A stretch of DNA of 64,000 bases, taken from Chthoniobacterales bacterium (lineage in GTDB: Bacteria > Verrucomicrobiota > Verrucomicrobiia > Chthoniobacterales > Terrimicrobiaceae). Shown piece after piece: positions 6,904 through 62,450 of the stretch (position 1 is the first letter of the stretch; the number at the start of each line of letters is the position of its first letter). A model generated the notes under the pieces. That model made no database searches, was not told the DNA's origin, and worked only from the letters and a program-made list of their open reading frames with translations. The translations under genes were made by a program, and so were the position numbers. The DNA lies in assembly GCA_014879575.1 (NCBI GenBank), contig JACSRU010000095.1, positions 18,968-82,967 of the forward strand, given 5' to 3'.

Positions 6904-6909
6904 ATCTTC

Positions 6910-11784: not shown

Positions 11785-11798
11785 ACCCCATTCACCCC

Positions 11799-13856
11799 AT
11801 GAAACCCGTGCAACAAGAGCTTCGATTCGAGTGGATGACCAAGCCTTTCAAGGTGGATCCCGCCAAGCGGACACCAGGATTTTGGATTCAGGATCTGCTA
11901 TTGCTTGAATCGATCACCGACCCGGGCGCCCATAAAATTCGGCATTTTCGATTGCATCGAGGACTCAACATTCTCTGGGCAAAACCCTTCGATCCAGATG
12001 CGGCGGACGCGGGAAACGACGAGTCGTTCTCAGGACATGCGGCAGGGAAGACGCTTTTTTGCCGGATGCTGCGCTACCTCCTCGGTGAACGGCATCTTGG
12101 AAACGAAATCGTTCAGGAAAAAATCGCGTCCAACTTTCCCAACGGTTGGGTTGTCGGGACGATCTTTATCGGCGAAACACCGTGGCTCGTGGGTCGTCCT
12201 TTCGAGGGAAAGCGCGGCCAATTCTCAGTCAAAGGGATGACGGTGGATGAGTTCCTCCAGAACTCAGAGCCGGAGAAAGAAGACTTCGATAAGTTTGAGG
12301 CCGCGCTCAATGAGGAGGTCATGCACCCGCTGAAAGTGCGGGCATTTCCAGACCGCCCGGGAGAGTTTATCTTCCAGCATTGGTTGCCGTGGCTGTCCCG
12401 CGACCAGGAGGCGCGTTTCGGAAGCGCGTCCCAATGGCGCGAGGCGTCCAGCGGGGCTGAACCGCTTCTCACGGATTCTGAAGAACGCTCATTTCTCGTT
12501 CGCGCGATTCTGAATCTTATCGATCCTGAAGAAAAAAAGGAACTGGCCCACAATGCCAATCTGGTGAGAGAGCGCGACAAGCTTCGCGGGCGTATTCCAA
12601 TCCTGGAAGATCGCGCGGGGACCGATCTTGCAAAACTTCGCACGGGGCTGAAATCATCCGGCCTCTCAGACGAATTCGCGGAGTCGCTTTCGCTGGAGGA
12701 CGACCTGCTCGTTCCGACGATCAAAGCGAAGCTGGATGAAAAGCTGCGTGGCGTGCGGGCGTTGATCGAAGACATCCCCAGCGCGCGGGATGTGGATAAG
12801 CTACAAGTCAGTCTGACCCGCGCGACCGTAACCAGAGCGGGATTGGAACGCGACCTGACGGAGCTGGAGAAAGGGCTGGAAAAGCTGAACGCGGATTGGG
12901 CGAATTTTTCCAAACAAAAGCAGACCGAGGAGATGGGTAGCCATTTCGAGAAGCTTCCGATTCCTCCGGGGTATTGCGGCGCTCCGATTCCATTGGCCGG
13001 AGCACAGCAGCCACCGTGTCGCCTCTGGCAGGAATGGTCGAATCTCCCCGTAGACGCAAAGACCGGAGGCCCTTCCCTCGAGGCTTACAATCAAGAGATG
13101 GGGCGACGAGTGGCGCAGCAGCGATCTCAAATCGAGGCAAAAAAGCAGGAAATCAGTATGGCGAGTTCGTCCGAAACGACGGCCCAGCAGGCGTTAGGCG
13201 ACGCGAACGAGAAGCGCCACAATCTTTTTGCCTATCTCAAAACGCAGGAAACAACCTTTCAAGGGCTCATCGGGCTCGCAGAAAGCGCCCAGAGCGCCCA
13301 CAAGGAGTTAAAAACGAGCCAAACCCAGCTCGAGAAAAAGGACGACGCAATCGACGAGTCCTACAAGAAGCAACAGGAGATTCGGGACAAGCAAAAGGGG
13401 GAGTTCTCCATATTTTCGGGCTACTTCGAGGGAATCTGCCAGCACGTCTTGGGACGCGTGATTCATGGCTCGGTGCTCACCCGCAAAAGGCTCCTCCAAT
13501 TGGACCTCAGCGACCGGGGACCTCTCACCAGCGCAGCAATCGAGACCATCAAGGTTCTGGCCTTGGATCTAGCGGCCGTCTGGTATTCGGCTGAGGGAAA
13601 GGGATTTCATCCGGGATTTTTGATTCACGATGGCCCTCGGGAAGCAGACATGGACGCATGGATATACCGCCGCTTTTTCACTTTCGTCACCAAACTCGAA
13701 GCCGCCTACGCCACCAGCCACGAGCCCGCGTTCCAATACATTATCACCACCACAGAGCCACCTCCCGAAGACATGCAACAGGGTAGATGGCTGCTCGAAC
13801 CAACCTTGAGTGCGCAGAAGGCGGACGAGAGACTGCTGAAAACGGACTTGAAATGA
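11799..13856 (+). CDS. Rad50/SMC-like coiled-coil ATPase
   Basis: Walker A 'GHAAGKT', long central coiled coil, Walker B-like 'GFLIHDGPREADMD'; 15 bp after the methylase. Confidence 0.7.
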   Translation: MKPVQQELRFEWMTKPFKVDPAKRTPGFWIQDLLLLESITDPGAHKIRHFRLHRGLNILWAKPFDPDAADAGNDESFSGHAAGKTLFCRMLRYLLGERHLGNEIVQEKIASNFPNGWVVGTIFIGETPWLVGRPFEGKRGQFSVKGMTVDEFLQNSEPEKEDFDKFEAALNEEVMHPLKVRAFPDRPGEFIFQHWLPWLSRDQEARFGSASQWREASSGAEPLLTDSEERSFLVRAILNLIDPEEKKELAHNANLVRERDKLRGRIPILEDRAGTDLAKLRTGLKSSGLSDEFAESLSLEDDLLVPTIKAKLDEKLRGVRALIEDIPSARDVDKLQVSLTRATVTRAGLERDLTELEKGLEKLNADWANFSKQKQTEEMGSHFEKLPIPPGYCGAPIPLAGAQQPPCRLWQEWSNLPVDAKTGGPSLEAYNQEMGRRVAQQRSQIEAKKQEISMASSSETTAQQALGDANEKRHNLFAYLKTQETTFQGLIGLAESAQSAHKELKTSQTQLEKKDDAIDESYKKQQEIRDKQKGEFSIFSGYFEGICQHVLGRVIHGSVLTRKRLLQLDLSDRGPLTSAAIETIKVLALDLAAVWYSAEGKGFHPGFLIHDGPREADMDAWIYRRFFTFVTKLEAAYATSHEPAFQYIITTTEPPPEDMQQGRWLLEPTLSAQKADERLLKTDLK

Positions 13857-13940: not shown

Positions 13941-14621
13941 ATGGCACCAAAGAAGAAAACCAACCCAAAAGCGACGGAGCCGCCGCGCCTCAAGATTCTC
14001 GTTTCGTCTGCCGTGGTGGATTGGGACGAATTGCTGGAGAGCATCTATGCCCTTCTGGAAACCTACGGCTACGAGGTGATCATGTCCCACAAGGGCACTC
14101 TACCGGTGGAGCCCTCCGTGTCCGCCATGGACTCCTGCCTCAAGGCTGTTGAGGATTGTGATTTGTTTCTGGGCGTCATCCTTCCGCGATATGGTTCGGG
14201 AAAAGAGGACAAGGATGGTCTTTCAATCACGCACCGAGAGGCAATCCGAGCGATTGAACTCAACAAGCCGAGATGGTTTCTCGTGCATGAGCATGTTTCC
14301 GTCGCCCGTGAGCTGCTGAGGCCGTATCGGGACGAAAAAATCAAAGACCGTTTCACCCTCAAAAAGGGAATCGAGTTTGGGAGCACCCGCATTCTCTCGA
14401 ATCTCCGCGTGTTGGACCTTTTCGAGCTGGCAATGCGACACGACATCCCCGAGGTCAAGGATCGCAAGGGCAACTGGGTGCAACCTTACACGTCGGAGGA
14501 CGACGCCCGGCTTTTTGTGTCAGCCCAGTTCCGCCGCTACCGGGAGATGTCCGAGAAGTATCTACCGAAACTGAAGGACACGGCTGCGATTCGCGGACGG
14601 ATCAAAGGAGGCAAATCATGA
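13941..14621 (+). CDS. DUF4062 domain protein
   Basis: 'LKILVSSAVVDWDELLESIYALLETYGYEVIMS...SAMDSCLKAVEDCDLFLGVILPRYGS...SITHREAIRAIELNKPRWFLVHE' resembles DUF4062. Confidence 0.75.
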   Translation: MAPKKKTNPKATEPPRLKILVSSAVVDWDELLESIYALLETYGYEVIMSHKGTLPVEPSVSAMDSCLKAVEDCDLFLGVILPRYGSGKEDKDGLSITHREAIRAIELNKPRWFLVHEHVSVARELLRPYRDEKIKDRFTLKKGIEFGSTRILSNLRVLDLFELAMRHDIPEVKDRKGNWVQPYTSEDDARLFVSAQFRRYREMSEKYLPKLKDTAAIRGRIKGGKS

Positions 14622-15988
14622 CCAAGGCGATCGAAAAGCTCCTCGAACAACCAGAATCCGAAACACTGGAGTTCAAGACGGGGAAGGTAAAACCAGCACA
14701 ACTTGGAAAAGTCGTTTGCGGTATGCTCAATCAACACGGTGGCGTGATTTTGTGGGGCGTGGATGACGAGGGAAGTCCGACCGGCATTACCGATGCCGAG
14801 GCTCGAGCCGTCGAGTTGAATAATTTCCTCATGCCCCGGATGAACCCGCGCCCGCTTTTCTCGGCCACGGCCCACCGGATTCGAGGGAAGGAAATTGTCG
14901 CCATCGACATCCCCGCCGGGACGGAAAAACCTTACGCATTCGAGCGGGAGTTTTGGGTCCGTCTCGGCTCGTCCACGATGCGCGCCGCCCCCGAACAAAG
15001 CTCCCGGATGGTGGAACGCAGCGCAGTCGCGCTCGATCGCTGGGAACGAGAACCGCATCCCGGGTTCGATCTCACGGACTGCGACAGTGCCGAATTGAAG
15101 GAGGCACGGGATGAAATCATCAAGGCCGGACGATTCGGCATTGATGTTCCTGCCGCCGATGTGGAACTCCTCGCCAAGTTGTATCTGCTAAAGAGCGGCC
15201 AGCTCACCAATGCCGCAGTCGTCCTGTTCGCGGCCAATCCTTTGGCATGGGCGCCGAATCTCTCGGTGAGAATCACCAGTCACATCCAAGGGGGGGAGGC
15301 GACTCACGACCGGATCCTCGAGGGTCCCGCCATCCGTATCCTGCGGGAGGCGGTGGTCGTGATCCAGCAACGGACCGGCCGCTCAATTGCCTTTCCCAAG
15401 GGACAGCTCGAACGCGAAGAACGCTCCGCCTATCCGCTTTACTCGCTTCGGGAAGGGTTGGTAAACGCCATGGTTCACCGGGACTACGAGACATCCGGTA
15501 TCGGCGTGCTGGTCAGGATCTACGAAGATCGCCTGGAAATCGCCAACCCCGGCCAATTACCAGACGGCTGGACTGGTCAGGATCTGGGCCGGAAGGTCGA
15601 ATCTCATCCCCGGAATCCCGACATCGCCCGGGTCTTTTATCTCCGAAAACTCATGGATCAACTTGGGCTGGGAACCCAGCGCATTGTGGACGAGTGCGTG
15701 TCCGGCGGAGCGAAATCTCCGAAATGGAAGCAAGAGAAGCACACTGTGACGCTCACCCTGTTCCCGGCACCCGAGTTGTCCGAACAGACGGCGCTGAATC
15801 CCAGACAGATGGAGTTCCTTAATTCCTTAAAGCTGGGAGCCCCTTTCAAGGCCGCTGACTACGAGAAGGCCACCTCGGTGAGCGCCCGCCAGGCTCGTCG
15901 TGATTTGGCCGAGTTGGAACGGATCGGCGCGCTCAAACGCACTGGCGCTGGACCGTCCACCGCCTACCAGCTCACCAGGAAACTCTGA
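14618..15988 (+). CDS. AlbA_2 / RecG-like (Schlafen-type) ATP-binding protein with C-terminal winged helix
   Basis: 'ESETLEFKTGKV...LGKVVCGMLNQHGGVILWGVDDEG', 'YPLYSLREGLVNAMVHRDYETSG', C-terminal 'ARQARRDLAELERIGALKRTG'; overlaps the DUF4062 gene by 4 nt. Confidence 0.85.
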   Translation: MTKAIEKLLEQPESETLEFKTGKVKPAQLGKVVCGMLNQHGGVILWGVDDEGSPTGITDAEARAVELNNFLMPRMNPRPLFSATAHRIRGKEIVAIDIPAGTEKPYAFEREFWVRLGSSTMRAAPEQSSRMVERSAVALDRWEREPHPGFDLTDCDSAELKEARDEIIKAGRFGIDVPAADVELLAKLYLLKSGQLTNAAVVLFAANPLAWAPNLSVRITSHIQGGEATHDRILEGPAIRILREAVVVIQQRTGRSIAFPKGQLEREERSAYPLYSLREGLVNAMVHRDYETSGIGVLVRIYEDRLEIANPGQLPDGWTGQDLGRKVESHPRNPDIARVFYLRKLMDQLGLGTQRIVDECVSGGAKSPKWKQEKHTVTLTLFPAPELSEQTALNPRQMEFLNSLKLGAPFKAADYEKATSVSARQARRDLAELERIGALKRTGAGPSTAYQLTRKL

Positions 15989-16009
15989 TCCGGCCAAAAT
16001 CCGGCCATA
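15988..16009 (+). repeat. First cluster of ATCCGGCCA direct repeats
   Basis: ATCCGGCCAAA-ATCCGGCCATA followed by degenerate TCTGGACAAG. Confidence 0.8.
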
Positions 16010-16119
16010 TCTGGACAAGCCCATGCCACCACTTAATTTTGAGATGCTCCGAGCCGAAAACGAAGGCGGCATCGCTCTTTTCATCAGGCATTTACATGAC
16101 TTTCAGAGAAGAGGCGTAA

Positions 16120-16150
16120 ATCCGGCCAGAATCCGGCCATATCCGGCCAA
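16120..16150 (+). repeat. Second cluster of ATCCGGCCA direct repeats
   Basis: ATCCGGCCAGA-ATCCGGCCAT-ATCCGGCCAA in tandem. Confidence 0.85.
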
Positions 16151-16187
16151 GGCATAAATCCACCCCAAATTACCCCTCCCGCAATTT

Positions 16188-17906
16188 ATGGCCAAGACCG
16201 AAGCGACCGTCGAAGAACTCGTCAGCATGATCGAGCGGAGCAAGCTCCGCCTGCCGGAAATGCAGCGTCGATACGTCTGGCGCTCTACTCGGGTTCGTGA
16301 CCTTCTCGACTCCCTTTATCGCGGTTATCCATCCGGGGCGATTCTCGTTTGGGAAACCGACGAAGGGGTGCCCTTGCAAGACATGGCGATCGCGCAGGAA
16401 GGCGGGAACATCGGTTCCTCCCAACTGCTGTTGGATGGTCAGCAGCGGCTCACCTCGCTATCTGCCGTGATCCGCGGCATCCCGGTGGACGTTCGCGGCA
16501 GAAAACGGCCAATCGAGCTGCTTTTCAATTTGGACCATCCAGAGAAGCTCGCCTTCGTCACCGAGGTCGATGAAGACGGCGACGAGGAGGAAACCGAGGA
16601 AGATGACGAAGACGGAATCGATGAGGAGAACCCGGATTCGTCGGAAGATGAGCTCCAGAAACGGTTCAACAAAATGACCTTCGTGGTGAGCACCCGGAAA
16701 TTGGAGCAGCTTCCAACCTGGGTAAAGGTCACGGACGTTTTCAAATCCGACAGCGACACTCCATTTCTCAAGCGAGCGGGCATCACTGGATTCGACGATC
16801 CCCGTTACGAAAAATACTCTCAACGGTTGGCCCGCCTTCGTGGCATCAAGCGGTATTCCTACCGGATCGACGTGCTGGAGCGGACTCTCGATTACGATGA
16901 GGTCACCGAGATTTTCGTGCGGGTTAACTCACTCGGTGCAAAATTGCGTAGCTCGGATCTCGCTCTGGCCCAGATCACCGCCAAGTGGAGAAATTCCCTC
17001 GCCGAATTTCAATCCTATCAGAAACAATGCGCCGGGCAGGGATTCGACCTCGATCTGGGTATTCATCTCAAAAATCTCGTGGCATTCGCGACGGGACAAT
17101 CCCGCTTTCTCACCGTGGGGAGATTGTCACTGGAGGCACTCCAAACCGCCTGGAAAGAATGCCGGGAGGGTATGGACTTCGCGCTAAATTTTCTGCGAAG
17201 CAACACCGGCATCGACAGCCCCGCGCTGCTCTCGTCCCCTTTTCTCCTCGTGACACTCGCTCTGTTCGGCCATCGAAGAAAATACGATGTCTCGCCTCAG
17301 GAGGAAGATCGCCTGAAATTCTGGTGTCTGCTCGCCAATGCCAAAGGCCGATATTCCCGGGGCTCGAGCGAGACGATTCTGGATCAGGATCTCGCCATTC
17401 TTCGAAACGGCGGCGCGGAAGATTTGATCGATCGACTTCGTCAGCAAGTGGGACGGCTGGATATTGCTCCGGAAGAGTTGGAGGGACGAAATCAACGGAG
17501 CGCGCTGTTCAAAACAATGTTCCTGGCATTTCGCGCTGCGGGTGCCAAAGACTGGAAGTCGCAGCTTTCCATCGCACTCTCTCATTCCGGAAGCCAGCAC
17601 CGCCTCCAGTTTCATCATATTTTTCCGAAGGCTGTTCTGAAGGGCAGCTACACGGCAAGGGAAGCGGATGACATCGCAAACCTCGCCTTCATCGGTGGGA
17701 AAACCAACCGGGTGATCAGCGACAAGGCGCCGGCAATCTACTTTCCAAAAATCCTGGAAAAAACAGGACTGGAGGCGTTCTCGTCCCAATGCATCCCCAC
17801 CGAGGAAACCCTGCTCACGTCGGACGCCTATAAAAAGTTTCTCAGCGAACGCCGCAAACGGATCGCTGACTGCTTGAATCACTTTCTTGGCGTCACACCG
17901 ACATGA
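16188..17906 (+). CDS. DUF262/DUF1524 (GmrSD-like) protein
   Basis: 'RLPEMQRRYVWRSTRVRDLLDSLYRGYPSGAILVWET', 'LLLDGQQRLTSLSAVI', C-terminal 'RLQFHHIFPKAVL...IANLAFIGGKTNRVISDKAP' (DUF1524 HNH-like). Confidence 0.9.
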   Translation: MAKTEATVEELVSMIERSKLRLPEMQRRYVWRSTRVRDLLDSLYRGYPSGAILVWETDEGVPLQDMAIAQEGGNIGSSQLLLDGQQRLTSLSAVIRGIPVDVRGRKRPIELLFNLDHPEKLAFVTEVDEDGDEEETEEDDEDGIDEENPDSSEDELQKRFNKMTFVVSTRKLEQLPTWVKVTDVFKSDSDTPFLKRAGITGFDDPRYEKYSQRLARLRGIKRYSYRIDVLERTLDYDEVTEIFVRVNSLGAKLRSSDLALAQITAKWRNSLAEFQSYQKQCAGQGFDLDLGIHLKNLVAFATGQSRFLTVGRLSLEALQTAWKECREGMDFALNFLRSNTGIDSPALLSSPFLLVTLALFGHRRKYDVSPQEEDRLKFWCLLANAKGRYSRGSSETILDQDLAILRNGGAEDLIDRLRQQVGRLDIAPEELEGRNQRSALFKTMFLAFRAAGAKDWKSQLSIALSHSGSQHRLQFHHIFPKAVLKGSYTAREADDIANLAFIGGKTNRVISDKAPAIYFPKILEKTGLEAFSSQCIPTEETLLTSDAYKKFLSERRKRIADCLNHFLGVTPT

Positions 17907-18667
17907 ACGCCCTCGAGCGGACCTTGATCGAAAAAGCCGGCTACGACAACGGGTGGGAGATCGTAGTGGAAAGCGTGCCAGAGCAGGTCGTGTTGGCGTC
18001 CGCGTTGCATCGGGCCAATGCAACGATCCGAGAGGACTCTGGGCGCGGCAGATGGCTGACGTCGCTGCCGGCGGGCTCGTTGCTTATCGAGCTGTCGAAA
18101 GCCGAGGCTGACTACTACGCGGGGGAAGGCCAGTTTCGCGTTTCCAACGACCGAGAGTTGGGACATCTGCTGCGACACGCGGCAAGATTGGCCCGATCAC
18201 TTCCCAACCAGCCGGAAGTCCGCTATCTCGCGGCAGTCGAAAAGAAACTGGCCGCGACAATAACCAATACGGAGGTCGAGAGCCTCGTCCGGCAACGAGT
18301 CGGTCAGGACATCTACCGGGATAGTCTGATGGACTACTGGGGGGGCGCCTGCGCCGTGACGGGCATCGCCATCCCGGCACTCCTTCGCGCCAGCCACGCC
18401 ATTCCCTGGTCGGAATGCCAATCCGATGCCGACCGGCTGAACGTCTTCAACGGTTTTCTACTCGCCGCGCATCTTGACGCGCTATTCGACCGGCATCTGA
18501 TCAGTTTTGACGACACCGGCGAGATCCTTTTCGCGCCATCCATCACGCTTGAGATCCAAAACAAACTCGGGCTTAAAGAATCGCTCAGGCTTCGTTGGAT
18601 CAGCCCCGAACATATTCCTTTCTTAAAGGCACACCGCGCTGTTTTTATTCGGAATCAGCAGGTGTGA
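17903..18667 (+). CDS. HNH endonuclease (HNH_2-type) protein
   Basis: 'YRDSLMDYWGGACAVTGIAIPALLRASHAIPWSECQSDADRLNVFNGFLLAAHLDALFDRHLISFDD'; 4-nt overlap with the DUF262 gene. Confidence 0.85.
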   Translation: MNALERTLIEKAGYDNGWEIVVESVPEQVVLASALHRANATIREDSGRGRWLTSLPAGSLLIELSKAEADYYAGEGQFRVSNDRELGHLLRHAARLARSLPNQPEVRYLAAVEKKLAATITNTEVESLVRQRVGQDIYRDSLMDYWGGACAVTGIAIPALLRASHAIPWSECQSDADRLNVFNGFLLAAHLDALFDRHLISFDDTGEILFAPSITLEIQNKLGLKESLRLRWISPEHIPFLKAHRAVFIRNQQV

Positions 18668-18857: not shown

Positions 18858-19772
18858 ATGTCCCAGGCAGCTCCGATCGATTTTCCCGTTTCAACTCCAT
18901 CAATTTGGCGTCATCAAACTCATGTTTATGAAAAATTACACGCGCTTGCGCGGCTCTGCTTTGGCGTTCAGCGTTCGACTCTTCCGGTCAAATTGCGGAC
19001 CAATAGCCTCCTGATCGGTCCTACGGGGGTCGGGAAGACCCACTTGGTGGGCAAAATTGCTGCCGAACATGATGCGGAATATCTCGCCGTCACATTGTCG
19101 AACTGGATCATTCTTGGCGGACGTGACAGAAGCTCACAAACAACCTGGGTGGCGATTTTGGAATTTCTTCGTCGCCACCACAATCGGCCCGTGATCCTCT
19201 TCATCGACGAGTTGGAAAAAGCCATCTCGCACCGCCATCAGGATACATGGTCCTGCCATTTGAGAGCCGAGGTATTCCAGCTGCTGGACCGCAAAATTCC
19301 GCGCGATCTAAAGGACGCCGATGGAAATGTGATCGGACCATCCGTTGTAGCGGCAGCTCAGGACAGGCTTGAAAATCACACCTTTATCGTGGCGTCGGCC
19401 ACCTTCCAGGATATTTGGGAGCGTTCGTCCAAATCCCCAATTGGATTCCAAGGCGAAATCGCAGAATCACCTGCTTTGACACCAGATCTTCTTGCCCGGG
19501 AACTTCCCCGAGAAATCGTGAACCGATTTCGCCATGAGTATTTGATCCTGCCAGAACTCAAACATGCCGACTACGTGGCGATGCTGGAACTCACATCCAA
19601 TCGAGTTCCACCCTATCTTCGCCAAAAGTTTCTGCAGCTTGGCTACGAGAAGATTCCAGCGGCGATCTCCATGAGGCAGGGATGTCGATTCATCGAGGAT
19701 CTGATGACCGATGTCCTTTTGACCGAAAGGGCATCCATCCAGCTGTCTGATCTGGACCCGGGGATAAACTGA
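18858..19772 (+). CDS. AAA+ ATPase
   Basis: Walker A 'LIGPTGVGKTHL', Walker B 'VILFIDELEKA', sensor-like 'IVASATFQDIW'. Confidence 0.8.
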   Translation: MSQAAPIDFPVSTPSIWRHQTHVYEKLHALARLCFGVQRSTLPVKLRTNSLLIGPTGVGKTHLVGKIAAEHDAEYLAVTLSNWIILGGRDRSSQTTWVAILEFLRRHHNRPVILFIDELEKAISHRHQDTWSCHLRAEVFQLLDRKIPRDLKDADGNVIGPSVVAAAQDRLENHTFIVASATFQDIWERSSKSPIGFQGEIAESPALTPDLLARELPREIVNRFRHEYLILPELKHADYVAMLELTSNRVPPYLRQKFLQLGYEKIPAAISMRQGCRFIEDLMTDVLLTERASIQLSDLDPGIN

Positions 19773-21709: not shown

Positions 21710-22507
21710 ATGCAAACTCTGCAAACCTCACCCACCCTGAAAGCCCCGAACCCTCGACGCAAATTCGATCCCTGGGCGCAACCCGCCAAAAGCACCTATC
21801 AAGATCTGATCTTCAAGGAGGAGTATCTTGACCGCCAACTCGAACTCCGTCCGGGAACCACCTGGATGCGAATCATCCCGAACAACACCGAAAAATACGA
21901 GTGGATGCTGCCAATCCACGCGATCCGAACAGAACACTTTCAGTTCATCCATCCCAAAACCACCGGAAGTGAGATCCGCTGCGTTTTCGACGACGCGTAT
22001 GCGTGGTTCAAAACCAACGACCCCGAAGCGCTGTTCTCAAAAAACAACCGAAACGGCTTCCGGCTCTTGAGCGACCGGATGGTTGCTTTCTGGGTCGCCA
22101 TCCAAGAAGGGAGCGACGTTGTCACGCGGCTGTTCCTTCACAATGGTTACAACGGCGATCGCGGCGGCCTTGCCGGCCTCGGCTATCGTGTGCTCCAGCT
22201 TACCCAGGACGAAGACGAAGACGGACATCCCATGCAAGAAATCGTGGACGCCGAAACCGGAGTCCAGATCGGCATCGAAAAGGCGAAGCCCATGGGAGCA
22301 CAGTTCCCTCGCTACGATCTTCACGTGGGACGGATCGCCTGTCCGTTGAACACCATGCTCGCCAAAATGAGCGACGAAGAACAGCGGGCCGTCTGTCCCA
22401 TCGAGGATACCGTCCGGGTGCTCACTCGTGCGGAACAATGGCCGCTGCTTGCGAAGATCGTGGGTGCGGACCTCGCAAATCGCATCCGCGGAAGCTTTGA
22501 CCAATAG
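21710..22507 (+). CDS. Accessory protein of unknown function; paralog of the 61704-62450 product
   Basis: Intact ORF; shared motifs with the downstream paralog ('YQDLI', 'TWMRIIP', 'WLLPI/WMLPI', 'FVHP/FIHP', 'GFRL', 'NG..G...GLA'). Confidence 0.75.
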   Translation: MQTLQTSPTLKAPNPRRKFDPWAQPAKSTYQDLIFKEEYLDRQLELRPGTTWMRIIPNNTEKYEWMLPIHAIRTEHFQFIHPKTTGSEIRCVFDDAYAWFKTNDPEALFSKNNRNGFRLLSDRMVAFWVAIQEGSDVVTRLFLHNGYNGDRGGLAGLGYRVLQLTQDEDEDGHPMQEIVDAETGVQIGIEKAKPMGAQFPRYDLHVGRIACPLNTMLAKMSDEEQRAVCPIEDTVRVLTRAEQWPLLAKIVGADLANRIRGSFDQ

Positions 22508-40080: not shown

Positions 40081-40692
40081 CTATGGTGCGACAATTCCGA
40101 GGGCGGACAGACGCTCAATAAGAACCTTCCGAGCTCTATAAATCCGCACTTCGACTGCTTTCGGAGAAATCTTCAACAGCTCGGCAATTTCCTTGTGAGG
40201 ACGACCTTCAATGGCGCCGAAAATAAAAGCCTCGCGCAGGTCCGTGGGAAGTTTCGCCAATTCGTGATCCAAAGCATGCAGCGCCTCCGTCGCTTCCGCT
40301 TGGTGATCAGGAGTCGGGCCCGGATGGGGAAATTCGCGTTCCTCGCCTGAATATTCTCCCTCCCTGCGGACCAACGACTCGCTGGTCCGGGATTGCCGCG
40401 CCCAGCGCGACCTAGCGTGGTCGCGGCACAAGTTGAGGGCGATCTGGAAAAGCCAGGTTGAGAATTTGGCCTGGGGACGGGTGCGTTCTAAGGCGAACCA
40501 AGCGCGAATGAAGGTCTCTTGCGCGAGATCTCGCGCAGTTTCCGCATCGTCCACGTGCCGGACTATGAACGCGAAGATCGATCCTTGATGCCGGCCAATC
40601 AGCTCCGCAAAAGCGTCCTCGTCGCCAGACCGGGCACGCGATACCAACAGCCAATCATCCGGCTCTTCATGATCATCGATGCTCGTCGTCAT
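40081..40692 (-). CDS. ECF RNA polymerase sigma factor (CnrH-like position)
   Basis: 'DEDAFAELIGRHQGSIFAFIVRHVDDAETARDLAQETFIRAWFAL', 'LPTDLREAFIFGAIEGRPHKEIAELLKISPKAVEVRIYRARKVL'. Confidence 0.9.
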   Translation of the reverse strand: MTTSIDDHEEPDDWLLVSRARSGDEDAFAELIGRHQGSIFAFIVRHVDDAETARDLAQETFIRAWFALERTRPQAKFSTWLFQIALNLCRDHARSRWARQSRTSESLVRREGEYSGEEREFPHPGPTPDHQAEATEALHALDHELAKLPTDLREAFIFGAIEGRPHKEIAELLKISPKAVEVRIYRARKVLIERLSALGIVAP

Positions 40693-41137
40693 GCGAGCTT
40701 TCGTCGCCCTCCCTCAGCGCATTGGCTGTCAGGCGCAACAGTTCATCATACTGTTCGGGGGTCAGCACTTTCCTCATTTCGAAGATGTGCCCGATGGTCA
40801 CCTTTTGAAGATCCCCCATCCGGGAATGAATCTCCTCAATGGCCCGATGCACGTTCTCCGAATCCTGCTTATCCCGCTGGATGACATCGGCGAGCTGCAC
40901 GTTTGCCATGTGGAGATGCTGTTCGAGCCGTGCACGTTCCGTCGCGTATTGCTCTTCGATCGGCTTCAAGGCGCGCTCCTGGTCAGCGGTAAGATTGAGC
41001 TTGGAATGAACCCAATCATGCGTTCGTCGCTCCTTGAGCGATACAAACGGTGCGACCCAAAGACAAATGCCGGCCGATACCGCCGCAACGACGACCACGA
41101 GGCCAAGAAACGGGAGTAACCGAGCCAGTGACTTCAT
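40673..41137 (-). CDS. CnrX-like periplasmic metal sensor
   Basis: N-terminal TM; 'THDWVHSKLNL' (HxxxH), 'ERARLEQHLHMANVQLADVIQ', 'GDLQKVTIGHIFEMRKVLTPEQ' closely resembles CnrX; overlaps the sigma gene. Confidence 0.8.
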   Translation of the reverse strand: MKSLARLLPFLGLVVVVAAVSAGICLWVAPFVSLKERRTHDWVHSKLNLTADQERALKPIEEQYATERARLEQHLHMANVQLADVIQRDKQDSENVHRAIEEIHSRMGDLQKVTIGHIFEMRKVLTPEQYDELLRLTANALREGDESSHDDEHR

Positions 41138-41457
41138 CGGATCGAGGCGAGCAACCCGGACGGAAGGTTACGCGAGCTGCCGGTAAAAATTTCCATATCA
41201 GCCGCCACGGAGTTGGCGCTCGGCAAAACGATCACCGGAGCCATGGCTCCAACCACCACGGCAACGGCAAGAGCTGACGCCAGAATTGGCGGGTGCCAGA
41301 TTCCCTCCAGTAAAGCCCGCCATCCTCGCAATTCGCTCTTCTGCCTCGTATGTTTCAAGCGAATCTCGCGAAGAACATCCTGTGCAAATGCGCCCGCAGC
41401 AGGCATCTCGGCCCCGCGAGCGCGGTGTTCTCGCAGGAGATCGTCAAAATTCATCAT
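41134..41457 (-). CDS. CnrY-like single-TM putative anti-sigma protein
   Basis: Small protein, soluble N-terminus and one TM (ILASALAVAVVVGAMAPVIVL); 4-nt overlap with the CnrX-like gene. Confidence 0.6.
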   Translation of the reverse strand: MMNFDDLLREHRARGAEMPAAGAFAQDVLREIRLKHTRQKSELRGWRALLEGIWHPPILASALAVAVVVGAMAPVIVLPSANSVAADMEIFTGSSRNLPSGLLASIR

Positions 41458-42615: not shown

Positions 42616-43416
42616 TCAAAACAGTTCAACGATGCCCTGTATATCGGGAGTTCCTCTTCGGGACTGCCCCGTCCGCACTTCGATGTTGTTCGCGATTTGC
42701 ACTGTGATCGCGCTGTGGGTATGTCCACACAAGACGGTGATTTTCGTTTTGGGGAAATGCTCACTAATCCGCTTGATCACCGCGCCCGCGGAAGCGTTCA
42801 CGTAGTGAGGAAGTGTCATCGGCTCGCAAGGTCGGCCGTTAAACCACACGGCCTTCGCAAATGGGGGAACGTGCGTGGCGATGAACACGTGGCGGTAGCT
42901 CGACAGCACGTAAGGCAGCACCCGGCGAAAATAGGCACCCGATTCGCGCCCCAATCGCTCCATTTTGCGAAAACTCGGATAGTTCGATTGATACCTTAGG
43001 TCACGGATCGCGTCTTGATCGGGGAAACGGCGAACTGTGCGCCGTCCGCCGTAGGCGCGACCGTCCGCCCAACCCCGATGACCAACCAGAACCGAAGTCG
43101 GGCTCAGGCGGATATTCTCCTCGTGGCCCAAGTGACAGAGATTTCGATGCTTCCTGCAGCACTCTGCCGCTATGCGGTCTACATCGGAAAAGCTGCCGCC
43201 ATAAAAATCATGGTTGCCCAGGACGAAATAAACCTTCCTGGGATGGCAGGCCACAGCCAGTTCACCCAAGTGCGCAGCAAGGGCGCTGGAAATGGAAATG
43301 TCACCGGTGATGACTGCGGCATCATAAACCCCCGATTTCAGCTTTTTGTAAAAGACCTGTCGCGTGACGTAATCCGCGTGGTCGAGGTGGATGTCGGTGA
43401 GCCAAAGAAGCTTCAT
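42616..43416 (-). CDS. Calcineurin-like metallophosphoesterase
   Basis: 'LLWLTDIHLDH', 'AAVITGDIS', 'VYFVLGNHDFYGG', 'FIATHVPPF', 'ITVLCGHTHS'. Confidence 0.9.
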   Translation of the reverse strand: MKLLWLTDIHLDHADYVTRQVFYKKLKSGVYDAAVITGDISISSALAAHLGELAVACHPRKVYFVLGNHDFYGGSFSDVDRIAAECCRKHRNLCHLGHEENIRLSPTSVLVGHRGWADGRAYGGRRTVRRFPDQDAIRDLRYQSNYPSFRKMERLGRESGAYFRRVLPYVLSSYRHVFIATHVPPFAKAVWFNGRPCEPMTLPHYVNASAGAVIKRISEHFPKTKITVLCGHTHSAITVQIANNIEVRTGQSRRGTPDIQGIVELF

Positions 43417-43706
43417 GGAATTTTGTCGGGCTCGGGGCGGGAGTTGAACTGCATCCAGGGTTTTTCGTGAACGATGCGAAGGGAGACCTGAGCAATGGGT
43501 GAGACTCGCCATGCCACTGGCTCTGCCCAACTGACGCGGCGGATCGGATCTGTGTAGCGGCGGAAACCACCAACGAACCGAAAGAGATCATCCTCCATCA
43601 CCACGGCCCGGCAATAACCGCAGATAGAACTGAATCGAGGAGCGGTGCTGAAAATGCTGATGACGGTTCCCCGTTGAGCCTCGAAAATCGGATACTCCAG
43701 TTTCAT
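43413..43706 (-). CDS. Small protein of unknown function, tandem paralog A
   Basis: 'GYCRAVVMEDDLFRFVGGFRR...WAEPVAWRVSPIAQVSLRIVHEKPWM'; 4-nt overlaps on both sides. Confidence 0.75.
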   Translation of the reverse strand: MKLEYPIFEAQRGTVISIFSTAPRFSSICGYCRAVVMEDDLFRFVGGFRRYTDPIRRVSWAEPVAWRVSPIAQVSLRIVHEKPWMQFNSRPEPDKIP

Positions 43707-43993
43707 GAGGATTTTCGGTCCGGCGAAATGCCAAGACGCATCCAGGGCTGTTCTCGAGCAATATCAATCGACACCTTCGCAAGCGGCACTGCGTCCCATT
43801 CGCATGACTCGGCCCAACAATGGCTCAGATCGACATTCGAGACTCGCTTGAATCCTCCGATAAAATGCAGATGCGTCGGCGTTTGCATTACGCTGCGGCA
43901 ATAACCGGTGAGAAAATGATGGTAGAGGACGGGAGTATAAATCTCCACGACGTAGCCGGATTGCGGCTCGATGATAAATGCTTCAAAATTCAT
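43703..43993 (-). CDS. Small protein of unknown function, tandem paralog B
   Basis: 'GYCRSVMQTPTHLHFIGGFKR...WAESCEWDAVPLAKVSIDIAREQPWM' aligns end to end with paralog A. Confidence 0.75.
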   Translation of the reverse strand: MNFEAFIIEPQSGYVVEIYTPVLYHHFLTGYCRSVMQTPTHLHFIGGFKRVSNVDLSHCWAESCEWDAVPLAKVSIDIAREQPWMRLGISPDRKSS

Positions 43994-45507
43994 GCTGTAT
44001 GGGATGCATTCTTCGAACCGCTGATTGTTAAGGCAGCTTGATCACCCGCAGCTTTCCACTCCGCACCCAGAAAAGGCTGAAACGTCTCCCGCCGAGCTTC
44101 ACCCGTAGCCCGGAAGACAACGGCCTCACCTGTTTTGAGCCGCCGGAGGTCCGCTCCTGTAAATTGCCGAGCCAGGGAACGTCCGGTCCTGGCACCAGCC
44201 CGCCAGCGCGTAGCAGGGCCGAATTGGTAGTTGGGAAGGCGAAACGCCGGTGGAGGAGGAACGGGAATGCGCTGCACCATGCCGCCCTCGTCCTCCAAAT
44301 CCAGCGGGGAAGCCGACTCAAAATAGGCCAGCGTCTCCGGGCAATCGCAGCTCATGAAGACCTTGGTGGCGCAGTTGTTGAGAAGGTGATGGACACGCGC
44401 CGAAGACAGGGCGCGAGCCGACAACGCACTCACGCTCTGCGCCGTGAGGATGCACGAGATCAAAGAATCCCGGCATTTATCCAAAAAGAAGGAATCACCT
44501 TCGTCCTCGGTGCCCGGCGTCATGAGCGATGGGAACTCGTCTCCGACGAAATACACCGGACGGACGCAGTTGACTGGGCGCCGGTTTTGTCCGTCGAAGT
44601 GGAAGCGGTGGCGGCGTTGCAAGGCACTCGTCTGGAACGCCGTCTTGATCAATGTCCGAAACACCTCGGCTTCTGGGCCGTAGTGAACGCGGCTCAAGGA
44701 AACGACCACCACACGGCCATGATCCATGATCTCATCGGGAGCGAACTCCCATCCTGCCGAAGGAGTAAACAGTTGCGACAGCTTGCTGGCCGTTAGACAC
44801 GACACATACGAGCGGGCGTAATTCATGATTGTGCCCCACGTCGAGGAAGCCAGATCCACCGTGTCGAAGTGCAGATATTCCAAGGCGAGTTTTGCCTCAA
44901 AATCGGAAATAGCTCCAAGTGCTTCCGCAAGTTTGACGGTTGATTCGGTATCGAGCAGGAGCTCCGAGTTTCGCTCGTTCCCCGCTTCATCGTCATCATC
45001 TCGCTTCATTTCGACACGCATCCGGCTGATAAGATCCAAGGCATCCGCGATGCCGCCGATGCCGTGCATATCCCCCAACTGGCGAGCTCGGGTCAGAACA
45101 GCTGCAACCTGTAAAAGACGTCGGTTATTCTCTTTCCAAAAGTCATCGTATGAGCCACCGCGGTCGGTGGAATGGATGCCACGAACCAACTGCATGATCC
45201 GCTCTGCGGCTGCACGGCTGTCGGGAGTCTGACCAACAAAGGGATCAACCCAGGAATTGCCTTGGCGTCCAATCACCAGAAGGTCATCAGAGCGGCCCGC
45301 GGCCGCCATGACGGCCTGAATGTGTTCCAGCATATCCCCCTTCACATCCAAAATCAGGGCACCCGCGCGCTTTTCGGGATTGTCGGCGTTGCGGGCGAGA
45401 AGTGATCGCAACAGCGGCAACAGCACGTAGAGGGTTTTGCCACAGCCGGTCGTGCCGAAAACGATTAGATGGCGGCAGAGCTCTTCGAGCGAGAGTTGGG
45501 TCAGCAT
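43990..45507 (-). CDS. VirD4/TraG-like P-loop ATPase (coupling-protein family, no evident N-terminal TM domain)
   Basis: 'HLIVFGTTGCGKTLYVLLPLL', 'LILDVKGDM', Walker B 'VYFVGDEFPSLMT', 'ILTAQSVSAL'. Confidence 0.85.
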   Translation of the reverse strand: MLTQLSLEELCRHLIVFGTTGCGKTLYVLLPLLRSLLARNADNPEKRAGALILDVKGDMLEHIQAVMAAAGRSDDLLVIGRQGNSWVDPFVGQTPDSRAAAERIMQLVRGIHSTDRGGSYDDFWKENNRRLLQVAAVLTRARQLGDMHGIGGIADALDLISRMRVEMKRDDDDEAGNERNSELLLDTESTVKLAEALGAISDFEAKLALEYLHFDTVDLASSTWGTIMNYARSYVSCLTASKLSQLFTPSAGWEFAPDEIMDHGRVVVVSLSRVHYGPEAEVFRTLIKTAFQTSALQRRHRFHFDGQNRRPVNCVRPVYFVGDEFPSLMTPGTEDEGDSFFLDKCRDSLISCILTAQSVSALSARALSSARVHHLLNNCATKVFMSCDCPETLAYFESASPLDLEDEGGMVQRIPVPPPPAFRLPNYQFGPATRWRAGARTGRSLARQFTGADLRRLKTGEAVVFRATGEARRETFQPFLGAEWKAAGDQAALTISGSKNASHTA

Positions 45508-45905
45508 AAGGTGGGTTCCATTCCATTCAGCGGCTCCGGATCGAGGCCGATTGAGGCCAGTATTTCGGCGTCAGCGCGCAGTCCCTCGAAGATTTCCATC
45601 GTTGACACCCGGAAAATCATGCCGGGGTCATCTGCCAGATTCTGCAAATATTCCGAGGAGTCTTTGAAATGACCGGGGGCGGTTCGCTTTTGGAAATCGC
45701 TCAGGGCGGCGAGGAGAATCCGGCACTTTCCCGGTAACTCTGCCAGAAACTTGCGAGTTTTCTCAGCAGCCTCCGCCGTGAGGTCGAGATGGTAGCCCGG
45801 TGAAGGCAGGCTAGTGCGTTGACGGATGATGTAACGCCGGAGCGCCCCCACTTGGTGGGTTAGAATCGTCAATTCATCCGAAGGATGGAGTTTGGGTTTT
45901 TTCAT
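45501..45905 (-). CDS. Hypothetical protein
   Basis: Overlapping ORF within the compact operon (overlaps both neighbours). Confidence 0.6.
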   Translation of the reverse strand: MKKPKLHPSDELTILTHQVGALRRYIIRQRTSLPSPGYHLDLTAEAAEKTRKFLAELPGKCRILLAALSDFQKRTAPGHFKDSSEYLQNLADDPGMIFRVSTMEIFEGLRADAEILASIGLDPEPLNGMEPTLC

Positions 45906-46504
45906 GAGAGGACGTGATCAATAAGGTTAAGCCGCTGAGCTTCCCGGGCCGTCAGGAACGACTCGGCTTGAATCAATTCTTTCAGGCGCTTGGGCTTCAT
46001 CTGCGTTGCTTCGAGAAGCAGGTGTTCGAGCTCCAAGCTCATTTGCCGCTGAAACCGCGAGATCGCCTCAATCTCGGAAACGCGTCCGAAGGCTTGGCCA
46101 GACGTGGGATGTAGCATCAGTCGGGCATGGGGCAGCATATAGCGATACCCGGGCTCACCACAGACGAGGAGGATCGCCGCCATGGACGCGACCACCGCAG
46201 AGCCGATGGTGAAGACCGGTGCGCGCACATGCCGCATCACATCAATGAGGGAGAGGCCGCTGGCCACGCACCCGCCTGGACCGGACACATGAAGAACAAT
46301 CGGGTCGTTGCCGTCGTTGGCGAAGGCCAACAGCATTTCATTCACGCGCTGGACGGCACCGGCATCAACTATCCCGAACAACGGAATGATCCGTTCCGGT
46401 CGACCATTGGGGAGAACCTCCTTGGGCGAAGTGCCTGCGACGACCTTCGGGTCGCTTTGGAAATTCAAAGTTTCAACATTCATCTTCATTGGGTTCATTC
46501 CCAA
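45902..46504 (-). CDS. ClpP-family serine protease-like protein
   Basis: 'PIVLHVSGPGGCVASGLSLIDVMR', Ser motif 'GSAVVASMAAILLVCGEPGYRYMLPHARLMLHP', 'SFLTAREAQRLNLIDHVL'. Confidence 0.85.
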   Translation of the reverse strand: MGMNPMKMNVETLNFQSDPKVVAGTSPKEVLPNGRPERIIPLFGIVDAGAVQRVNEMLLAFANDGNDPIVLHVSGPGGCVASGLSLIDVMRHVRAPVFTIGSAVVASMAAILLVCGEPGYRYMLPHARLMLHPTSGQAFGRVSEIEAISRFQRQMSLELEHLLLEATQMKPKRLKELIQAESFLTAREAQRLNLIDHVLS

Positions 46505-58394: not shown

Positions 58395-58859
58395 ATGAAA
58401 AAAATAATCCACTCCACACTCGCCCTGTTCCTGATCGCCTCCACGGCTTTTGCCGAAGAGGGACACGACCATAACAAAGTCATCCCCGGCCCCAAAGGGG
58501 GGAAAGTTGTCGAAGTAGAGGGCGGCCACGCTGAATTTTTTGTCCAGCCGGACAAGAAGGTGAGCATCAGCTTCTACGGGGAGGACATGAAGCCCGTCCC
58601 GCCCGCCGAGCAAGCAGTGACGGTGATCGCCGAGGCTCCCGCTGGGAAAACGAAGCTGGAATTTGATAAGACCGCAGACGGCCTTATTTCCAAGGAGGTT
58701 CTTCCAGAAGGTGACGGCTACCGCATCGTTCTGCAAATCCGCAATACAGCCGATGCCAAGCCTCAGAACTTCCGCATCGAATATCACACCGAAGTCTGCG
58801 GGAAGTGCAACCGCGCAGAATACGCCTGCGTTTGCACCGGAGACGGACACGGGCATTGA
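58395..58859 (+). CDS. Exported metal-binding-like protein
   Basis: Signal peptide; 'EEGHDHNKVIPGPKGGKVVEVEGGHAEFFVQPDKKVSISFYG', C-term 'CGKCNRAEYACVCTGDGHGH'. Confidence 0.65.
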   Translation: MKKIIHSTLALFLIASTAFAEEGHDHNKVIPGPKGGKVVEVEGGHAEFFVQPDKKVSISFYGEDMKPVPPAEQAVTVIAEAPAGKTKLEFDKTADGLISKEVLPEGDGYRIVLQIRNTADAKPQNFRIEYHTEVCGKCNRAEYACVCTGDGHGH

Positions 58860-59877: not shown

Positions 59878-60330
59878 ATGAGTGAACTGATTCCTCGCTT
59901 CCCGAATAGTGCAGCAGATCCAACCGAAGATGTAACTGACGCCTGGCTCACTTTTGTGCGTGATCCCAACAGCGATCTCGGCCGGCTCCGTGAACAGATC
60001 GAAGCAATGGTGGGGCGACTCCTTTATCCGCGCACCTTGGGCGGATTTTTTGATGGCTTCTTCGAGCATATCGCTCGGGAAGCGACGTTGCTGACCTTGT
60101 CTCGATTTCTTGCCGGAAACAAAAAGTTACTCACTGCGACCGGAGCGGGAAATCGCCAAAGCGTCAACGCTCAGTTGATCCGTAGTATCTGGCTGGCCAT
60201 GCAGGTCACCATGTGGCGGACACGATCACTTACCATCCGCGGTGCCGAAACCACCCCGGGATCTCAAGAGTTGAAGTCGATCAAATCTCTCCGCCGAAAG
60301 GTTGCAGCTCTTAATCTTTCCGACGAATAG
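59878..60330 (+). CDS. Sigma-like protein lacking an HTH; paralog of the N-terminal half of the next gene
   Basis: Aligns with 60386-61066 product: 'WLTFVRDP...LYPRTL...LSRFLAGNKKLLTATGAGNRQSVNAQL' vs 'WIEFIQAP...LRPSTL...FSNLLRGNRCLVAATRARQHSLIAGQL'. Confidence 0.6.
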   Translation: MSELIPRFPNSAADPTEDVTDAWLTFVRDPNSDLGRLREQIEAMVGRLLYPRTLGGFFDGFFEHIAREATLLTLSRFLAGNKKLLTATGAGNRQSVNAQLIRSIWLAMQVTMWRTRSLTIRGAETTPGSQELKSIKSLRRKVAALNLSDE

Positions 60331-60385
60331 CCCGTGCCGTCTTTCGACGACTCGGACTCCCTCAGCGAAAACTTTCCCCGGTGTT

Positions 60386-61066
60386 ATGCCTAATGACACC
60401 GAAATTCACAGTAATGATTTTTCTGACCCGCTCACTAATCGCTGGATCGAATTTATTCAAGCTCCTCATGACGAGGATGCTCGAAACCGATTCGCCACAG
60501 AACTCAATGATCTGGTGCGGAAATTTCTCCGCCCGTCGACGCTGATTCCCCAACTGAGGAGCCTGAGCGAAGATCTCTGCCAGGAAGCCTGCCAGCTGCT
60601 TTTCTCGAATTTACTCAGGGGCAATCGATGTCTCGTTGCCGCAACCCGTGCCCGCCAGCACTCGTTGATCGCCGGGCAGCTTCGATGTTCTGTCTCGGCC
60701 GCCCTGCGGTTCGCCAAATGGAAGGTGCTCAAGAAACTCGCACGCCCTTTGGATCAACCGCAGCAGGCACAAGATCAACACGAAATAGCCAGCTGTCAGC
60801 ACCCGGCGAACTTTGCGTCACTCCGTGAACTCCCGCCTGAGGCCCAGCAAAAACTCGTCTTGGACATGCTGCATCAGGCGGTGTGCGAACTACGCCTCAA
60901 CTCCGATCATGCAGAACTCGCTCGCACCCTCCTCGAAAACGATCTGACCCAAGCCGATCTTGCTCGCTCTCTCGGCGTCTCCCGGCAGGCCGTCTCCCAG
61001 CGACTCAATCCCGTGTGGCGGTATCTCCGCCAAGCAATCAATGACCAAGAATTCCCACTCTCATGA
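60386..61066 (+). CDS. Sigma-like protein with C-terminal HTH
   Basis: C-terminal HTH 'LARTLLENDLTQADLARSLGVSRQAVSQRLNPVWRYLRQAI'. Confidence 0.65.
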   Translation: MPNDTEIHSNDFSDPLTNRWIEFIQAPHDEDARNRFATELNDLVRKFLRPSTLIPQLRSLSEDLCQEACQLLFSNLLRGNRCLVAATRARQHSLIAGQLRCSVSAALRFAKWKVLKKLARPLDQPQQAQDQHEIASCQHPANFASLRELPPEAQQKLVLDMLHQAVCELRLNSDHAELARTLLENDLTQADLARSLGVSRQAVSQRLNPVWRYLRQAINDQEFPLS

Positions 61067-61635
61067 ACCACCCCACATCACTCATCCGTAAACGAAAATT
61101 TGCCATTGCAACCGGCAAAGCCAATTTTGAACTGAGCCGTTACACCGCCGGCAAAGTCAAAACACAAGACACCACACTCCTCGTCATTTCGAGGACGGAG
61201 GTCGAAGCCTGCGACCTCTCGCGATTCTTGGGATCCTGCAGCCCCAAGCACCAGGATCATCGATTAGCAAGTCTCCACGGCAAAGTGAGATTCACGATCG
61301 ACGGTTACGACAACGATCCGGAGCCGCTCTGTGCGATACCCAGTGTGCGGAAGTTTTACCGCCTTTGCCATGAGCGCTGGCCGTGTTGGTCGTTCTTCGC
61401 CGATCTCGAGAGCGAGTGTCTTGGGATGGTCGCCGCCTGTGTTGTGCCCAATGTGTCCCTTGTCCAACGGCCTCGTCGAAAGGTCGAAGTCACGATGCTG
61501 CAGCCAGACCTGATTACCTTTTTCGAGTTCTGTCTTCCTGCTGCGGCCTATCTCCATTCCCGGCTGGGGATCGACAAATTCGCGGGGATGAAACTTCTCC
61601 AACGCGTCTCCTACTACCTCCAGTTACCGGACTGA
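61063..61635 (+). CDS. Hypothetical protein
   Basis: Intact ORF, 4-nt overlap with upstream gene. Confidence 0.55.
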   Translation: MNHPTSLIRKRKFAIATGKANFELSRYTAGKVKTQDTTLLVISRTEVEACDLSRFLGSCSPKHQDHRLASLHGKVRFTIDGYDNDPEPLCAIPSVRKFYRLCHERWPCWSFFADLESECLGMVAACVVPNVSLVQRPRRKVEVTMLQPDLITFFEFCLPAAAYLHSRLGIDKFAGMKLLQRVSYYLQLPD

Positions 61636-61703
61636 CAGACCAAAAACTCACATTCCAAAACGATCAAGCTCCCTCGTTAATTTTTCATCCGCAACCCGCA
61701 CCC

Positions 61704-62450
61704 GTGACCACACACTCCAACTCACCACAAAAGTATCAGGACCTGATTCTCCGGCCTGAATTCCAACACCTGAAACTTAATTTTCCACATGGTATTACTT
61801 GGATTCGCATCCTCCCCGGCCTCGGCAGCAGCGCTTACGGCTGGCTCCTTCCGATTCTTGCGCTCGAATTTCCCGGAGGACGCTTCGTTCATCCTGCGAG
61901 TTTCGATCCAAACAGAAGATCGGCCTACGATGTCGCGCGGGATTGGTTCTTGCGGCACGACCCAAGTTCGCTGTGCTCAAAAACCAACAAGACAGGATTT
62001 CGCCTGAGGCCAGTCCGAATGTGCGCGTGCTGGGCCGTCGAATTCTCCGAGACAGAAATCCATTCCCTGCGTTTGGTTCTCGAAAGTTTCAGCAACGGAT
62101 CAACAGGGCCGGTCGGCCTCGCTCACAAAATCTGGTGGAAAATTGTAGAGAAGGACGAAAACGGCGAACGCATGGGTGACGCGATTCATCCCACGAATGG
62201 CGTTATGATTTCCGTTGAACGTCACAAACGTAAAGGTGCCGCCCCGCTGGATTGGATACGGCTCGGGCGAATTCCGCGTTGTGTGGATGAAATGCTCGAA
62301 ACGGTGAGCCCCGTGGAAGCCTCGGCTCTACGGCCACTCGAGGAGGTTATTTATCAGCCGACGGTGGACGAACAATGGGAGTATTTGGGACGTCTGGTCA
62401 CCCATGAACTCGCTGCGCGGATCCGCATCTGGGACCGGGAGCGGCAATAG
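61704..62450 (+). CDS. Accessory protein, paralog of the 21710-22507 product (GTG start proposed)
   Basis: 'KYQDLILRPEFQHLKLNFPHGITWIRILPGLGSSAYGWLLPILALEFPGGRFVHPASFD...SKTNKTGFRLRPVR' collinear with the 21.7 kb protein; upstream part of the 61383 ORF does not resemble the paralog. Confidence 0.7.
   Translation: MTTHSNSPQKYQDLILRPEFQHLKLNFPHGITWIRILPGLGSSAYGWLLPILALEFPGGRFVHPASFDPNRRSAYDVARDWFLRHDPSSLCSKTNKTGFRLRPVRMCACWAVEFSETEIHSLRLVLESFSNGSTGPVGLAHKIWWKIVEKDENGERMGDAIHPTNGVMISVERHKRKGAAPLDWIRLGRIPRCVDEMLETVSPVEASALRPLEEVIYQPTVDEQWEYLGRLVTHELAARIRIWDRERQ

Follow-up and report, generated by a model that had tools for sequence, protein, structure and literature searches.

What does a ClpP-like protease do in the same tightly packed gene block as a relative of the ATPases that pump DNA in conjugation? 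We asked this of a locus in the window, the whole 64,000-nucleotide stretch analysed here, which is the right-hand 64 kb of the 83-kb contig C22 of a Chthoniobacterales genome (G000). The preliminary description reported six overlapping ORFs, and we recovered all six on the minus strand, from window position 46504 to 42616, with every coordinate and all five overlaps exactly as given there:

p1, 45902 to 46504, minus strand: ClpP-like serine peptidase, 200 aa (Pfam CLP_protease, 4.5e-35)
p2, 45501 to 45905, minus strand: small protein, 134 aa (no Pfam family)
p3, 43990 to 45507, minus strand: soluble VirD4/TrwB-family ATPase, 505 aa (Pfam TrwB_AAD_bind, 1.5e-6, above the curated cut-off)
p4, 43703 to 43993, minus strand: small beta-rich protein, 96 aa (no Pfam family; a new family)
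p5, 43413 to 43706, minus strand: paralogue of p4, 97 aa (no Pfam family)
p6, 42616 to 43416, minus strand: calcineurin-like metallophosphoesterase, 266 aa (Pfam Metallophos, 4.3e-9)

A ClpP-like peptidase and a soluble VirD4-type ATPase in one block

In gene order, the junctions of the block overlap by 4, 7, 4, 4 and 4 nt (4 nt at 45902/45905, 43990/43993, 43703/43706 and 43413/43416; 7 nt at 45501/45507). Because 4-nt overlaps are frequent elsewhere in the window (for example at 41134, 49366 and 54444), the overlaps alone are ordinary and reflect tight packing. Stronger evidence comes from relatives, in which the gene order and several identical overlaps recur at 30–57% protein identity. Pfam agrees with the protease, VirD4-like ATPase and metallophosphoesterase named in the preliminary description (p1, p3 and p6), and the two proteins it called paralogs, p4 and p5, are 35% identical (E 4e-17).

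The p1 protein matches ClpP chains in the PDB (best 1.8e-24), and its Ser-His-Asp triad is intact (S107/H132/D196) and kept in the three copies compared. When p1 is aligned with E. coli ClpP, there is a 12-column gap across the FDIYSRLLKERV region, so that the helix-A stretch is absent, and the pocket residues Tyr60/62 of ClpP are replaced by Val and by His or Cys. We take helix A and Tyr60/62 to be the surface on which ClpP docks Clp ATPases; judged from this alignment, p1 may have lost its ClpX-type docking surface. One arm of a 23-nt inverted repeat lies within the ClpP gene (46403–46425 and 58690–58712, 83% complementary); the repeat brackets nearly the whole right metal region and may be due to chance.

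In p3, the motifs are of VirD4 type, with Walker A (GTTGCGKT) at residue 18, Walker B (LILDVKGD) at 51 and DEF at 323, and the orthologue in genome G472 scores above the cut-off for T4SS-DNA_transf. The ATPase had been described as lacking an obvious membrane domain, and we found no hydrophobic segment in p3: Walker A starts at residue 18, maximum hydropathy is 1.43, there is no N-terminal transmembrane domain, and the stop-to-stop frame offers only 21 aa extra upstream. In a tree, p3 and the ATPases of G472 and G476 form a clade (support 100/100) that is long-branched and distinct from the one formed by the membrane-anchored coupling proteins of Verrucomicrobiota. Coupling proteins that lack a membrane domain make up a known subfamily and can transfer plasmids (PMC7434980). 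Scans of viral contigs for p1 and p3 gave no relatives, nor did a scan with a better p3 alignment, and a scan of genome contigs for p3 relatives gave two only (first ATPase alignment, one poor pattern). Plasmid ATPases matching p3 at 23–27% identity were rejected as block relatives: they resemble coupling proteins, and two lie beside relaxase genes.

Among the remaining proteins, p2 has orthologues in G469 (33%) and G472, sited between the ClpP and ATPase genes. The AF2 model of p4 has a pLDDT of 87, and a fold search of p4 in the PDB found nothing significant (best E 0.69); in G469 and G476 the p4 gene follows that of the ATPase, and G472 has a weak match in this position. The metal ligands of p6 are conserved, and its orthologues are 53% and 50% identical. 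Phosphoesterases related to p6 occur in at least 80 IMG/VR contigs (L085–L164), some longer than 400 kb. Phosphoesterases on Legionella and Gemmatirosa plasmids were set aside as block copies, as they come without the rest of the block.

The block in relatives and the backbone of the element

When we surveyed conservation, as the preliminary description had proposed, we found that the genes co-occur and that the block is conserved in relatives in a shared order. G469, of the same genus, carries on contig JAPLTF010000095.1 ClpP, p2, ATPase, p4, a 129-aa ORF and phosphoesterase in that order, with identities of 53, 33, 52–57, 31 and 53% for ClpP, p2, ATPase, p4 and phosphoesterase; an NNN assembly gap interrupts the ATPase gene. 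G472, of the same family, has the block split across two loci, C9 with ClpP, p2 and ATPase joined by 4-nt overlaps and followed by the weak p4 match, and C11 with p0, p4 and phosphoesterase. The p0 gene also lies before ClpP in G469 and is absent from the window. In G476, also of this family, the C-terminal part of the ATPase is followed by p4, and in G216, which belongs to another family, tRNA-Met is followed by an integrase, a 390-aa ORF, p4, phosphoesterase and a sigma-like gene. The strict p3 clade is present in 4 of the 213 genomes of the order, and at class level p4 occurs only in the host's family and in G216, in a sample that did not list G469. The block is a real, conserved unit that combines a soluble relative of the conjugation DNA pump with a ClpP-like protease.

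A row of genes in G427 (L067 1785–5304) encodes a ClpP-like protein without catalytic residues, a VirD4-like ATPase, a membrane protein and a phosphoesterase. We considered this set as a distant copy and put it aside, since the ATPase does not group within the p3 clade and the ClpP-like protein no longer has the triad; convergence is possible.

Further genes accompany the block in relatives, and their counterparts in the window are:

18858 to 19772, plus strand: ClpX-like AAA+ protein with an SPIGFQG loop, a backbone gene (hhalign to E. coli ClpX)
21710 to 22507, plus strand: U1, a backbone protein of unknown family (its homologues in G469 and G472:C11 neighbour the AAA+ gene)
59878 to 60330, plus strand: second, shorter sigma-like paralogue (HMM E 2e-16)
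60302 to 61066, plus strand: sigma-like/HTH regulator, divergent in relatives (NCBIfam sigma70-ECF, 3e-6, below the cut-off)
61383 to 62450, plus strand: second U1 copy (34–42% identity to U1 of G469 and G472)

The sigma-like gene adjoins the module divergently in G469, at both G472 loci and at a second G469 locus, C93, which holds an operon of HTH-phosphoesterase, p0, a p4-like gene and AAA+. It is present in 4 of 213 genomes, 3 of which carry p3 (Fisher 1e-5, a value that ignores kinship). Members of the AAA+ and U1 families neighbour the G469 module and occur within the G472:C11 element. The G216 element carries a 430-aa tyrosine integrase, recognised by eye, next to tRNA-Met, and the G472:C11 copy ends near tRNA-Leu with a 36-nt direct repeat. 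An apparent decayed remnant of the divergent pair of HTH-phosphoesterase and sigma-like genes is seen in G470 (L214 8812–9570). Based on synteny with relatives, the block very probably belongs to the backbone that characterises a family of integrative mobile elements in Verrucomicrobiota.

The gene types that we identified on C22 are metal resistance, defence and mobile element, the last including a tyrosine integrase (L002 2978–4054) and ParA-like and KfrA-like genes, and no housekeeping genes were identified on the contig. As C22 does not close on itself, a plasmid cannot be separated from a chromosomal island. The block had been described as inserted between two metal islands. Metal-resistance genes do flank it on both sides; the order of insertion, however, was probably the reverse. 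The sigma-like regulator adjoins the block in relatives and in the window lies 13 kb from it, beyond the metal-resistance region, so the metal genes were, to judge from gene order, probably inserted later into an old element backbone; no ends of such an insertion were identified in the window. Three overlapping small genes at 40081–41457, adjoining metal efflux genes, give the impression, from their sequence, of an ECF sigma/anti-sigma metal-sensing set. At 2–13856, genes for a large MZB-domain helicase, an SNF2 helicase, an Eco57I-type methylase and a 685-aa protein stand in a row and together look like a DISARM-type defence locus, and at 13941–18667 DUF4062, Schlafen/AlbA, GmrSD and HNH genes, paired with 4-nt overlaps, appear defence-like.

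Links to transfer and a ClpX-like candidate partner

To relate the block to conjugation, we searched for relaxase and VirB4 families. No relaxase was found on C22, which is incomplete (PF03432 and PF08751 searched), and the VirB4 families PF03135 and PF19044 had no match in five carrier genomes, while controls gave matches. The relaxases of G000 are on other contigs: a MobA/VirD2-like relaxase on C142 adjoins a coupling protein with membrane segments, and C62, which has a MOBF relaxase, carries its own VirD4-like ATPase of 491 aa. There are also relaxases in G469 (C89), G427 and G472 (MOBF, ~16 kb from its block); G469 lacks MOBF, and G476 lacks both PF03432 and PF08751. Because no relaxase of the families searched was found near the block on C22 and no VirB4 in the five genomes, the block is not a standard transfer operon, in agreement with the preliminary description, which had also named a known module always found with relaxase and T4SS genes as the contrary case; a linked relaxase and VirB4 were not found. 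Paired elements with a relaxase, a membrane-anchored coupling protein and an AAA+ gene are present in G000 and G469 (L081 1012–9442 and L083 10403–14132), and in L081 an ABC transporter follows this set.

The protease-ATPase system that the preliminary description raised as a possibility is hypothetical, and the AAA+ protein at 18858–19772 is a more conventional candidate partner of p1 than the VirD4-like p3. It aligns with E. coli ClpX over 231 columns (hhalign probability 98.3), the IGF loop falling at the matching position, and its homologues carry an IGF, LGF or MGF loop, or AGF in one near-identical pair, with GF invariant. IGF, LGF and MGF are known ClpP-recognition tripeptides (PMC9753991). 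The N-terminal zinc-binding domain of ClpX is absent, as the alignment starts at residue 47 of the AAA+ protein and residue 112 of ClpX, and inspection by eye showed no GYVG-like pore loop. The AAA+ and ClpP genes share an element in G000 and G469; in the window they are more than 20 kb apart. Since homologues with the loop also occur without a nearby element ClpP, a pairing of p1 with this protein is hypothetical.

Proposed function and comparison with known systems

With some reserve, we suggest that the block is a DNA-motor/protease module serving transfer or maintenance of the element. The mechanism that follows, with functions drawn from protein families, is slightly more tentative. The divergent sigma-like regulator would control the block, and p3, as a soluble VirD4-type ring ATPase, would move element DNA while the element is transferred or maintained; any membrane partner would be borrowed. 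The ClpP-like p1 would remove regulators or DNA-bound proteins that obstruct DNA movement, receiving its substrates either from p3 or from the ClpX-like AAA+ protein that the element encodes; p6 would trim nucleotides or DNA ends, and p2, p4 and p5 may be adaptors. The VirD4-type motifs of p3, the retained catalytic residues of p1 and p6, the ability of membrane-domain-less coupling proteins to transfer plasmids and the ClpP-recognition loops in the AAA+ homologues support this reading. It is weakened by the absence of a C22 relaxase and of VirB4, by G000 relaxases with ATPases of their own, by the missing docking features of p1 and by AAA+ homologues without an element ClpP; the AF2 model of p3, with a pLDDT of 41, gives no structural support, and none for the all-alpha domain of coupling proteins. 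A bolder version, in which a VirD4/FtsK-HerA-type ring ATPase works directly with a ClpP-like chamber lacking the normal AAA+ docking surface and clears or processes DNA-bound proteins during pumping, seems to us quite improbable.

The same VirD4-family motifs would suit an ordinary mobilisation set, in which an integrative mobilisable element has its relaxase on another contig and p3 serves simply as its coupling protein. The relaxases of G000 and the MOBF relaxase near the G472 block are consistent with this, as are other verrucomicrobial MOBF-like relaxase genes (recognised by eye) near VirD4-like ATPases. However, VirD4-like ATPases of their own lie near the G000 relaxases, p3 belongs to a separate long-branched clade, MOBF is missing from G469 and both relaxase families from G476, and neither ClpP nor a phosphoesterase is a known component of mobilisation sets, so that we consider this unlikely. 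A dedicated ClpXP-type protease, in which p1 and the AAA+ protein degrade host restriction enzymes or element repressors and p3 acts separately, would account for the alignment with ClpX, the invariant GF and the shared element in G000 and G469; in E. coli, type I restriction complexes are degraded by host ClpXP (PMC11109961). This, too, we regard as doubtful, given that the helix-A stretch and pocket tyrosines are absent from p1, the AAA+ protein lacks the zinc domain and a visible GYVG-like loop, and its homologues are found without an element ClpP.

Neighbouring genes bring defence into consideration, with the ATPase sensing or tracking along invading phage or plasmid DNA and the protease and phosphoesterase as effectors. 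C22 carries the Eco57I-type methylase with SNF2 and MZB helicases, GmrSD and Schlafen/AlbA; next to the G469 copy there are AbiE-like genes, and next to the G472:C11 copy a type I R-M system (both by eye, from translations); and PADLOC mad8 matches p3 weakly (1.3e-8). Yet mad8 covers the ATPase fold only, PADLOC gave superfamily-level ATPase matches for p3 and none for p1, p2, p4, p5 and p6, and the conserved neighbours of the block are backbone genes, not defence genes. In the small G216 integrase element, p4, the metallophosphoesterase and the sigma-like gene recur with no defence gene recognised among the ORFs. An anti-phage or anti-plasmid role therefore has a low probability.

The literature that we searched says little about mobile elements of Verrucomicrobiota, and these elements now have a recognisable backbone of sigma-like regulator, phosphoesterase, p4 and ClpX-like AAA+ protein. 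Our searches found no paper combining ClpP, VirD4 and metallophosphoesterase, and none that brings together a ClpP-like protein, a coupling protein and conjugation. Should p1 work with p3, the protease would be fed by a DNA-pumping ATPase and not by a Clp unfoldase; if it works with the AAA+ protein, this would be an element-borne Clp protease.

Compared with known systems, p1 shares the fold family and Ser-His-Asp triad of ClpP in ClpXP and ClpAP, but differs in the helix-A stretch and pocket tyrosines, which are absent in the alignment, and its gene sits on a mobile element along with that of a VirD4-like ATPase. The AAA+ protein resembles the ClpX unfoldase in its AAA+ core and in an IGF/LGF/MGF loop at the ClpX position, and departs from it in having no zinc-binding N domain and a different pore loop. 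Like the TMD-less type IV coupling protein TraJ of pIP501 (PMC7434980), p3 has VirD4/TrwB-family nucleotide-binding motifs and no TMD; in contrast to TraJ, it has no adjacent T4SS or relaxase and no small membrane partner in the block, and through overlaps its gene is tied to those of the ClpP-like protein and the phosphoesterase. The family as a whole resembles integrative and mobilisable elements in its integrase and tRNA-side insertion in G216 and its tRNA-Leu end in G472. No relaxase was recognised in the small G216 element, and the backbone of regulator, phosphoesterase, p4 and AAA+ protein, which we did not recognise in any described IME, sets this family apart.
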